Assembly (NCBI GenBank): GCA_902624105.1
Contig: CACNWH010000001.1
Location: 1-64,000, forward strand
Direction of reading: 5' to 3'
Source: an uncultured Prochlorococcus sp.
GTDB lineage: Bacteria > Cyanobacteriota > Cyanobacteriia > PCC-6307 > Cyanobiaceae
DNA length: 64,000 bases
Notes under the pieces: model-generated
Databases searched by the model: none
What the model was told of the DNA's origin: nothing
What the model saw: only the letters and a program-made list of their open reading frames with translations
Shown: piece after piece, positions 38,181 through 50,554 of the stretch
How positions within the stretch are numbered: the first letter of the stretch is position 1
How the letters are laid out: each line of letters starts with the position of its first letter
Program-made: the position numbers and the translations under genes

Positions 38181-38277
38181 AAAAAAAGACCTCTATTTCT
38201 AGAGGTCTTTTTAAGGTCTTATTGAATCAAGTGTATCCTTGTTTCCACTGATTTAGTAAAACCACTCCTACACACAT
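38181..38277 (-). ncRNA. Yfr2-family small RNA, copy 1
   Basis: On the minus strand the predicted RNA starts near TGTGTGTAGGAG, contains CAGTGGAAACAAGGATACACTT with the GGAAACA element that defines the cyanobacterial Yfr2 (Cyano-2) family, and ends at a hairpin (AGACCTCTAGAAATAGAGGTCT) with a T run. The same layout recurs at 42.6 and 50.5 kb. A TATATA sequence lies just upstream as a -10 candidate. Start position is estimated. Confidence 0.82.
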
Positions 38278-38330: not shown

Positions 38331-38355
38331 CTTAACTGTCACATGTGCCAATTAT
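38331..38355. promoter_or_regulatory. Imperfect palindrome upstream of Yfr2-like RNA copy 1
   Basis: TTAACTGTCACATGTG followed by CCAATTA: the left arm and centre match the perfect palindrome at 50384, with two mismatches in the right arm. It lies about 54-78 bases upstream of the estimated RNA start, the same distance as at the other two copies. Confidence 0.55.
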
Positions 38356-38370
38356 GAAAAAAATTATTAA

Positions 38371-38440
38371 AAAACACCCTAATCTTTTGAATCGGGGCGT
38401 TTAGTGATCAGAAATTATTGTGTGAGGAGTTTTCTGATGT
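38371..38440 (-). ncRNA. Yfr1-like small RNA
   Basis: On the minus strand the sequence reads ATCAGAAA-ACTCCTCACAC-AATAATTTCTGAT, then a rho-independent terminator (AAACGCCC...GGGTGTTT plus a T run, 38371-38402). ACTCCTCACAC is the invariant unpaired 11-mer of the cyanobacterial RNA Yfr1, here flanked by complementary ATCAGAAA/TTTCTGAT arms. Yfr1 is Hfq-independent and base-pairs with ribosome binding sites of membrane-protein mRNAs. The 5' end is estimated. Whether this is the genome's only Yfr1 or a paralogue cannot be seen here. Confidence 0.75.
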
Positions 38441-39758: not shown

Positions 39759-39917
39759 TTAATAAACTTTGCAATGAGCACTTGTTGGATGCTCTATACA
39801 TTCTTTATCCCAGAAATCTTGCTTTGCTTCTTTTGGTAATTTGTAATTAAAATCATGCATTCTCCACATATCTGAAGTGGCATTTCTAAGAGCATTGAAC
39901 GGAGTAGTGAGTTTCAT
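39759..39917 (-). CDS. MKL-family micro-protein, copy 1 (intact)
   Basis: A 52-codon ORF starting MKLTTPFNALRNATSDMW and ending FWDKECIEHPTSAHCKVY. It shares its start (MKL-TP), its ribosome binding site context and the terminal Glu-Cys...His-Cys pattern with five other sites in the island. A derivative of this copy, with two in-frame stops, lies at 43999-44157. Family unknown; two cysteines near the C terminus suggest a disulfide or metal site. Confidence 0.6.
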   Translation of the reverse strand: MKLTTPFNALRNATSDMWRMHDFNYKLPKEAKQDFWDKECIEHPTSAHCKVY

Positions 39918-40680: not shown

Positions 40681-40875
40681 TTAAACATATCCATTACTTA
40701 TAGTTGGAGATTCTTCATCACAATACATGATACAAGGATCAGATTTAAATATTTTTCTATAGTCATCATGCAATCTTTCAGTTGCAAACCTTTCTTTTGA
40801 TTTTAAAGCATGTCTTATCAAATCCATCTCATTGAATTTTCGATTAAGGATGGTGAAAGGAGTAGTTAGTTTCAT
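40681..40875 (-). CDS. MKL-family micro-protein, copy 2 (intact)
   Basis: A 64-codon ORF: MKLTTPFTILNRKFNEMDLI ... HDDYRKIFKSDPCIMYCDEE. The CIMYCD end parallels CLIYCD in the copies at 41602 and 47742. AGGAG lies at ribosome-binding distance before the ATG. The frame stays open upstream to an ATG at 41028 through part of the leader repeat, giving a 115-codon alternative; the short start is preferred because it matches the other family members. Confidence 0.6.
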   Translation of the reverse strand: MKLTTPFTILNRKFNEMDLIRHALKSKERFATERLHDDYRKIFKSDPCIMYCDEESPTISNGYV

Positions 40876-40924
40876 GAGTTCTCCTAGATCTTTTTTATAT
40901 TGTCGCTCGATTTGTATTTTATTT

Positions 40925-41082
40925 GTAGAGTGTTTTTGCTCAAGTAATAATGCTTTGTGGTTCTCAGCACTATATTTTTCTATCTGATAGGAGTATAAAA
41001 ATACAGGAGTCAAGTTAACTTCAAACATTTAGGCGAACGAAGTTCAAGACTCGAAAGGGGCAAAAACATGCCCCCTTTATTT
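40925..41082. repeat. Leader repeat, copy A
   Basis: About 160 bp shared with 42129-42292 and 44209-44362. The common blocks, read on the plus strand, are AGAGTGTTTTTGCTCAAGTA, ATAATGCTTTGTGGTTCTCA, and AAGTTCAAGACTCGAAAGGG followed by a small hairpin (GGGGCA...TGCCCC). Each copy lies immediately upstream (minus strand) of an MKL-family gene or its remnant, so it is probably the promoter and leader of that family. Confidence 0.8.
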
Positions 41083-41601: not shown

Positions 41602-41784
41602 TCAGTCGCAATAGATTAAACAATGATTATTGGTTGGATTTTCCATGCATTCTTTCTCCCAGAAGTTCTTAATTGCAGGTGGACATTTCTCAAGTTCTTT
41701 TGGTGTTTCCTTCATCTTTTCGCCTGCATAATTAAATGCATTTAAGTATCTTGGAAGGATTGAAAATTGATTGAATAGTTTCAT
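41602..41784 (-). CDS. MKL-family micro-protein, copy 3 (intact)
   Basis: A 60-codon ORF: MKLFNQFSILPRYLNAFNYA ... NFWEKECMENPTNNHCLIYCD. A full AGGAGGTCTC ribosome binding site precedes the ATG. The C-terminal FWEKECMENPTNNHC block is nearly identical in layout to the copies at 39759 and 47742. Four residues end in CLIYCD, with two Cys flanking an aromatic residue. Confidence 0.65.
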   Translation of the reverse strand: MKLFNQFSILPRYLNAFNYAGEKMKETPKELEKCPPAIKNFWEKECMENPTNNHCLIYCD

Positions 41785-42573: not shown

Positions 42574-42669
42574 AAAAAAAGGACCCTATTTCTAGAGGTC
42601 TTTTTCCGTGTCTACCGAATTAAGTGTATCCTTGTTTCCACTGCTTCAGTAAAAACACTCCTGCACACA
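42574..42669 (-). ncRNA. Yfr2-family small RNA, copy 2
   Basis: On the minus strand the RNA begins near TGTGTGCAGGAGTG, contains CAGTGGAAACAAGGATACACTT with the GGAAACA core, and ends in a hairpin (GACCTCTAGAAATAGGGTCC) plus T run. It is the closest relative of copy 1 (38181), including the terminator. The terminator has one compensating mismatch. Start position estimated. Confidence 0.8.
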
Positions 42670-42723
42670 TATTAAACACTATGCTATTTATTTTTTCTGT
42701 GAGAGGGGAAAGTAGAATGTTTC

Positions 42724-42746
42724 TAAACTGTTATATATGCCAATTT
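42724..42746. promoter_or_regulatory. Degenerate palindrome upstream of Yfr2-like RNA copy 2
   Basis: TAAACTGTTATATATGCCAA: alignable with the palindromes at 38331 and 50384 but eroded in the centre and right arm. It sits at about -55 to -77 from the estimated RNA start. Confidence 0.4.
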
Positions 42747-47741: not shown

Positions 47742-47909
47742 CTAATCACAGTAAATCAGACAAGAATGATTCGTTGGATGTTCTAAGCATTCTTGATCCC
47801 AATAATCATACTTCATATAATTATCACTTTTGTTTTGAACATGCATTTCTTTATTATTAAATGCATTTAGGAATCTGGGAAGGATTTTTAATGGAGTAGC
47901 CAGTTTCAT
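47742..47909 (-). CDS. MKL-family micro-protein, copy 6 (intact)
   Basis: A 55-codon ORF: MKLATPLKILPRFLNAFNNK ... YWDQECLEHPTNHSCLIYCD. A perfect AAGGAGGTCTT ribosome binding site precedes the ATG. It is the best-preserved member together with copy 3, sharing PRFLNAF and ECxExPTNxxCLIYCD. No leader repeat lies upstream. Confidence 0.68.
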   Translation of the reverse strand: MKLATPLKILPRFLNAFNNKEMHVQNKSDNYMKYDYWDQECLEHPTNHSCLIYCD

Positions 47910-50383: not shown

Positions 50384-50409
50384 TTTAACTGTCACATGTG
50401 ACAGTTAAA
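50384..50409. promoter_or_regulatory. Perfect 26-bp palindrome upstream of Yfr2-like RNA copy 3
   Basis: Thirteen bases (TTTAACTGTCACA) are followed directly by their reverse complement. The centre is TGTCACATGTGACA. It lies about 52-77 bases upstream of the estimated RNA start. Centre near -65, where upstream activators typically bind. It does not match the NtcA consensus (GTA-N8-TAC). Confidence 0.7.
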
Positions 50410-50460: not shown

Positions 50461-50554
50461 GTTGTGTGTAGGAGAAGTTGATTATTCAGTGGAAACATGG
50501 ATACACTTGTTTTAATCAACTTGAAAAAGACCCTTTTTAAGGGTCTTTTTTTTT
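50461..50554 (+). ncRNA. Yfr2-family small RNA, copy 3
   Basis: Plus-strand RNA starting near GTTGTGTGTAGGAG after a TACTAT -10 candidate. It contains CAGTGGAAACATGGATACACTT (GGAAACA core) and ends in AAGACCC...GGGTCTT plus a T run (50524-50554). It is the only copy on the plus strand and the only one with a perfect upstream palindrome. Confidence 0.85.

Follow-up and report, generated by a model that had tools for sequence, protein, structure and literature searches.

We consider it highly probable that the palindrome upstream of the third Yfr2-like gene in the window (the whole stretch of 64,000 nucleotides that was analysed) is a CGRE1 operator through which the GntR-family regulator PlmA activates yfr2, and that this operator is reused before genes of the PF24653 family in several cyanophage lineages, probably under the control of the host PlmA. 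The host element itself is already known, and the window adds one more strain to it. Beyond CGRE1 as described, we report that some strains have a second host target, that the operator centre comes in two lengths, and that cyanophages carry copies. The motif, its positions, its distribution in hosts and phages, its association with particular genes and the absence of a GntR gene from four phage records are results of the present analysis; PlmA binding and the induction of yfr2 are taken from the literature.

The palindrome and its copies in the window

An earlier, sequence-only reading had described a perfect 26-bp palindrome at a conserved distance upstream of three Yfr2-like genes, and had proposed a protein-binding site at the distance typical of a class I activator. 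The palindrome was confirmed exactly: all 13 pairs of positions 50384-50409 are complementary and the 14th is not, the coordinates given earlier being off by no more than about 3 nt. The elements of the region are as follows.

38210-38277, minus strand: Yfr2-family sRNA, copy 1 (Rfam RF01701)
38334-38353, minus strand: operator of copy 1, AATTGGCACATGTGACAGTT on the minus strand; 18 of 18 half-site letters, 2 mismatches
38359-38438, minus strand: Yfr10 sRNA (RF02362), ending 5 bp before the operator of copy 1
42603-42672, minus strand: Yfr2-family sRNA, copy 2 (Rfam RF01701)
42726-42745, minus strand: degenerate operator of copy 2, AATTGGCATATATAACAGTT; 15 of 18 half-site letters
50384-50409, no strand: palindrome of copy 3, with the core operator AACTGTCACATGTGACAGTT at 50387-50406; CGRE1-type site
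50462-50526, plus strand: Yfr2-family sRNA, copy 3 (Rfam RF01701), with an intrinsic terminator at 50523-50551

The three genes next to the palindrome and its two copies all match RF01701, the Rfam family Cyano-1, which is Yfr2, and no further RF01701 gene was found in the draft genome (1.10 Mb, 67% complete). Relative to the 5' end of the Rfam match, the 20-mer lies at -76 to -57 in copy 1, at -73 to -54 in copy 2 and at -75 to -56 in copy 3, which bears out the conserved distance (-76 to -54 across the three copies). The site is centred some 65 bp before the start of Yfr2, which supports the class I distance, and the prediction of a protein-binding site at a fixed distance, linked to Yfr2, is likewise supported. 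At copy 1, the order Yfr10, site, Yfr2 is that of strain MED4 (MED4 coordinates from PMC2518516).

In the window, the 22-mer TAACTGTCACATGTGACAGTTA is matched perfectly at 50386-50407 and with two mismatches at 38333-38354; no other copy was present within 3 mismatches, and 100 dinucleotide shuffles yielded no match at all. A search of the whole draft genome with the 20-mer, allowing up to 3 mismatches, returned nothing beyond the sites of copies 1 and 3. The copy 2 site scores higher than any of the 40 control regions and any of the 40 shuffles from the same genus, among which the maximum was 13. Around the Yfr2 cluster, the minus strand also carries four short, seemingly related ORFs (39759-39917, 40681-41028, 41602-41784 and 47742-47909; 52-115 aa), which share an MKL(T/F/A) stretch, three of them with a C-terminal EC(I/M/L)E(H/N)PTxxxCxxY motif, and which may represent a small repeated gene family.

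Distribution of the site in host genomes

The host survey covered the upstream DNA of 111 Yfr2 genes in six genus groups, the window's genus and its relatives; a pair of half-sites of 9 bases each, separated by 0-4 bp, was scored, up to a maximum of 18 letters. Scores of at least 14 were reached by 71 of the 111 Yfr2 upstream regions, by 0/111 control regions and by 3/111 shuffles, and the host consensus upstream of Yfr2 across marine picocyanobacteria is AAYTGKCAC-N1/2-GTGMCARTT. Where the full palindrome is present in the window's genus, it spans about -74 to -55 relative to Yfr2. The copy common to most strains of this genus has the promoter-proximal half-site GTGACAGTT alone, ending at about -55. 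Of 40 same-genus regions, 36 have a proximal half-site with at least 8 of its 9 letters, but 10 have a distal one of that quality; many of these regions are one orthologous locus and not independent. More than 20 regions have the proximal half-site without the distal. The graded decay that the sequence-only reading had seen in the window consists mostly of the loss of the promoter-distal half-site, with the proximal one kept.

A centre of 1 bp (for example AACTGGCACAGTGACAGTT) is found in several related genera, where the site occupies either about -70 to -50 or about -33 to -14. In some Synechococcus-like genera (L053, L070, L076, L083, L086, L087, L092 and L107) the full site at about -33 to -14 lies over the core promoter, sometimes with an extra half-site-like stretch upstream of it. 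This position suggests a different sign of control in those genera and better fits a repressor.

Searches starting from the motif found it in 106 of 200 same-genus genomes, and its reversed control in none of the 200. When the 1-bp-centre form was searched in this way, 28 of 30 loci adjoined a Yfr2 gene as judged by eye, and RF01701 was detected at the gathering score in 15 of the 18 loci scanned with Rfam. MED4 has exactly two sites within 2 mismatches (346753-346772 and 383312-383331), located at yfr2 and yfr4; the RF01701 positions in this genome agree with the published MED4 sRNA coordinates (PMC2518516). Six loci of the same genus (L116, L122, L126, L127, L129 and L142) constitute a second host target, in which the perfect palindrome, at positions 1501-1520 of each locus, precedes a gene of about 147 aa by 90-92 nt. 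The encoded protein (MKILIATLILGASFPVNA...) has a signal-peptide-like start and a glycine-zipper-like end, and matches Pfam PF05433 only below the cut-off. In L127, a Yfr2-like start lies divergently on the other side of the palindrome. That the motif always precedes Yfr2, a check put forward with the sequence-only reading, holds nearly throughout the hosts, but it also stands before this secreted host protein in some strains and before PF24653 genes in phages.

CGRE1 and the GntR-family regulator PlmA

According to PMC6778093, yfr2 promoters carrying the CGRE1 motif are bound by the GntR regulator PMM1637, which regulates two Yfr2 homologues in MED4; the same paper places CGRE1 nowhere else in MED4 and gives Lambrecht et al. 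2018 (DNA Res 25:489) as the source of the motif. PMM1637 is PlmA by name (PMC7344720), and the statements on activation of yfr2 expression come from a later paper of the CGRE1 group. Like the CGRE1/PMM1637 system, the palindrome is found upstream of yfr2 homologues in marine picocyanobacteria and at two MED4 loci and no others. Since this MED4 distribution, two sites at yfr2 and yfr4 only, matches the published description, we strongly infer that the palindrome is CGRE1, the match being one of location and MED4 distribution as described.

The draft genome encodes one GntR protein, which shares 78% identity with its MED4 counterpart; compared with ten other genomes, its DNA-binding domain is 88-94% identical and the rest of the protein 64-74%. 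GntR-family operators follow the palindromic consensus NyGTNxACNy (PMC4494728), and the palindrome contains GT and AC (TGTCAC/GTGACA), but this consensus was not derived from the PlmA subfamily.

Binding by a CRP-family protein, whether NtcA or one of the other Crp-type regulators, of which MED4 has three (PMC6778093), is highly improbable. The half-sites do contain TGTGA/TCACA-like letters, the resemblance to which the sequence-only reading had pointed, but only 1-2 bp separate the CAC half from the GTG half, and their orientation is opposite to that of CRP sites. The latter have the form TGTGA-N6-TCACA. The palindrome also lacks the NtcA arrangement GTA-N8-TAC (PMC3037559), in agreement with the earlier statement that it is not an NtcA site, and the published binder of yfr2 promoters is a GntR protein (PMC6778093). 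With neither arrangement in the palindrome and the literature also against it, a CRP/NtcA operator was rejected, and the suggested CRP resemblance gives way to the regulator on record, PMM1637/PlmA acting via CGRE1.

The site in cyanophage genomes

The pattern ACTGKCACATGTGMCAGT, with the 2-bp centre, was present in at least 93 viral contigs, and its reversed control in none. The 1-bp form was present in 80 viral contigs; about half of these matches fall for the most part within genes of phages that are unrelated and were discounted as chance, leaving about 40. A PF24653 gene begins no more than 320 nt downstream of 78/80 of the 2-bp sites and 39/80 of the 1-bp sites examined. This family is annotated as 'Cyanophage outer membrane protein like beta barrel domain' and corresponds to phrog_417. 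One exception among the 2-bp sites, L210, lies near a contig end; L205:773-790 is the sole examined 2-bp viral site that is neither beside a PF24653 gene nor near a contig end. At the 2-bp viral sites, the bases just outside the search pattern are A in 78 of 78 and T in 76 of 78, as in hosts. In a relaxed scan, a PF24653 gene was found downstream of 54/54 host-type variants and of 0/26 others (Fisher test, 1e-21, a value that overstates the evidence because the contigs are not independent). Many viral contigs are near-copies of one another, and 44 non-redundant sites remain.

Host-type sites beside the phage gene occur in genuine phage genomes, those of the T4-like isolates S-CAM9 and S-PRM1, where the site (at 156376-156395 in S-CAM9) lies between a glucosyltransferase gene and the PF24653 gene; downstream of the latter come hli and petE, and in S-PRM1 also psbA. 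The second lineage is siphovirus-like, with lambda-like tail genes and a protein similar to PF24653, and no isolate relatives of it were found by DNA similarity. L241, L244, L246 and about 20 other siphovirus-like contigs carry an extra half-site-like CACAGTGACAC some 10-20 bp upstream of the palindrome. No Yfr2-like RNA was seen beside the phage sites, nor did Rfam detect one in the S-CAM9 stretch. A search of four phage records, two of which are possibly fragments, revealed no GntR gene, and this makes the host PlmA the probable binder in phages.

The phage site might instead be a decoy, or the relic of a promoter-gene cassette derived from the host, and leave the gene unaffected. In favour of such a reading, the site is present at a minority of PF24653 genes (3 of the 62 nearest homologues), and site and gene co-occur. 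However, the full strength of the 20-mer is kept within divergent flanks, in both T4-like and siphovirus-like genomes and with both centre lengths, and the distances to the late promoter are fixed. Moreover, a tree of 134 PF24653 proteins, built on few columns and giving no direction of change, requires at least 7 gains or losses of the site, 5 of them forced by well-supported branches, and about 9 changes of centre length. We therefore regard a decoy or relic as unlikely, and keep to an operator that acts on the PF24653 gene.

Position of the phage site relative to promoters

ATAAATA ends 1-9 nt before the palindrome in 20 of the 44 non-redundant sites, in 18 of them at 5, 6 or 9 nt; in the same test it was found at no site on the opposite strand or in the control window. 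Cyanophage late promoters have the form NATAAATA (PMC2984593), and with this form and the observed spacing the palindrome would cover the first transcribed bases. A class I distance to a host-type -10 box was rejected as the general arrangement in phages: a good TATAAT-like box, 28-46 nt downstream, was found at about 5 of the 44 sites, and the association with the late promoter is stronger.

This position, which for many phage sites is the expected start of the late transcript, would also suit a palindrome that works as RNA, as a stabilising or processing hairpin at the 5' end of that transcript or in a Yfr10-Yfr2 precursor. At copy 1 and in MED4 the site does have Yfr10 on one side and Yfr2 on the other, and a precursor common to these two RNAs has been reported (PMC2518516); the copy 3 sequence is predicted to fold well (-10.3 kcal/mol, z -3.6). 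Nevertheless, the form most frequent in hosts (45/75), with G..A at the variable pair, is unpaired there and folds no better than shuffles, the pair of the phage 2-bp form is matched in 29/45 cases against 27 expected under independence, and more than 20 same-genus regions have kept just the proximal half-site. No terminator was found at the palindrome. The mismatched commonest form, the folding and the missing terminator disfavour a hairpin or terminator, and we judge a role as RNA very unlikely, the preferred reading being that of a DNA site for PlmA.

Proposed regulation in hosts and phages

In the host, a dimer of the single GntR-family regulator PlmA (PMM1637 in MED4) would bind the CGRE1 operator and, from its position at about -65, would most likely activate yfr2 in a class-I-like manner when nitrogen runs out or light is high. 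Activation is deduced from the position of the site and from the expression statements of the later paper. In the phage, the host PlmA probably makes expression of the PF24653 gene dependent on the host's nitrogen or redox state. Judging from the arrangement of the sites, PlmA placed over the late start would be more likely to block the late promoter than to activate it, with release when the state of the host changes, and at the phage sites with a sigma-70-like box downstream it could act as an activator.

Precedents and implications

Two host regulators provide precedents. Cyanophage genes are placed under the host PhoBR system via PhoB and the Pho box (PMC10976474), which is likewise a case of a phage gene under a nutrient-responsive host regulator through the host's own kind of site; the regulator family and the gene differ, and in the present case the site is predicted from sequence and often lies over a late promoter. 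NtcA sites have been described in cyanophage genomes (PMC3037559), again involving a nitrogen-linked host regulator and T4-like cyanophages, but those are GTA-N8-TAC sites occurring 1-16 times per genome, whereas the 20-mer is tied to one gene family. We found no paper on GntR or PlmA sites in phages in the open-access literature.

It seems reasonably likely that at least two unrelated groups of cyanophages, T4-like and siphovirus-like, have acquired and kept the host's PlmA operator over the promoter of one outer-membrane beta-barrel gene, so that the regulator of the host, known on the chromosome for its control of the sRNA Yfr2, decides when, or whether, this envelope protein is made. The extra host target and the phage target both look exported, which hints at a single circuit comprising PlmA, Yfr2 and envelope proteins. 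Together, these results suggest that viruses of marine cyanobacteria have borrowed a control switch of their hosts. PlmA would thereby join PhoB and NtcA among the host regulators whose sites are carried by marine viruses, and the phage sites would offer a first lead on the regulation of a widespread viral membrane protein.
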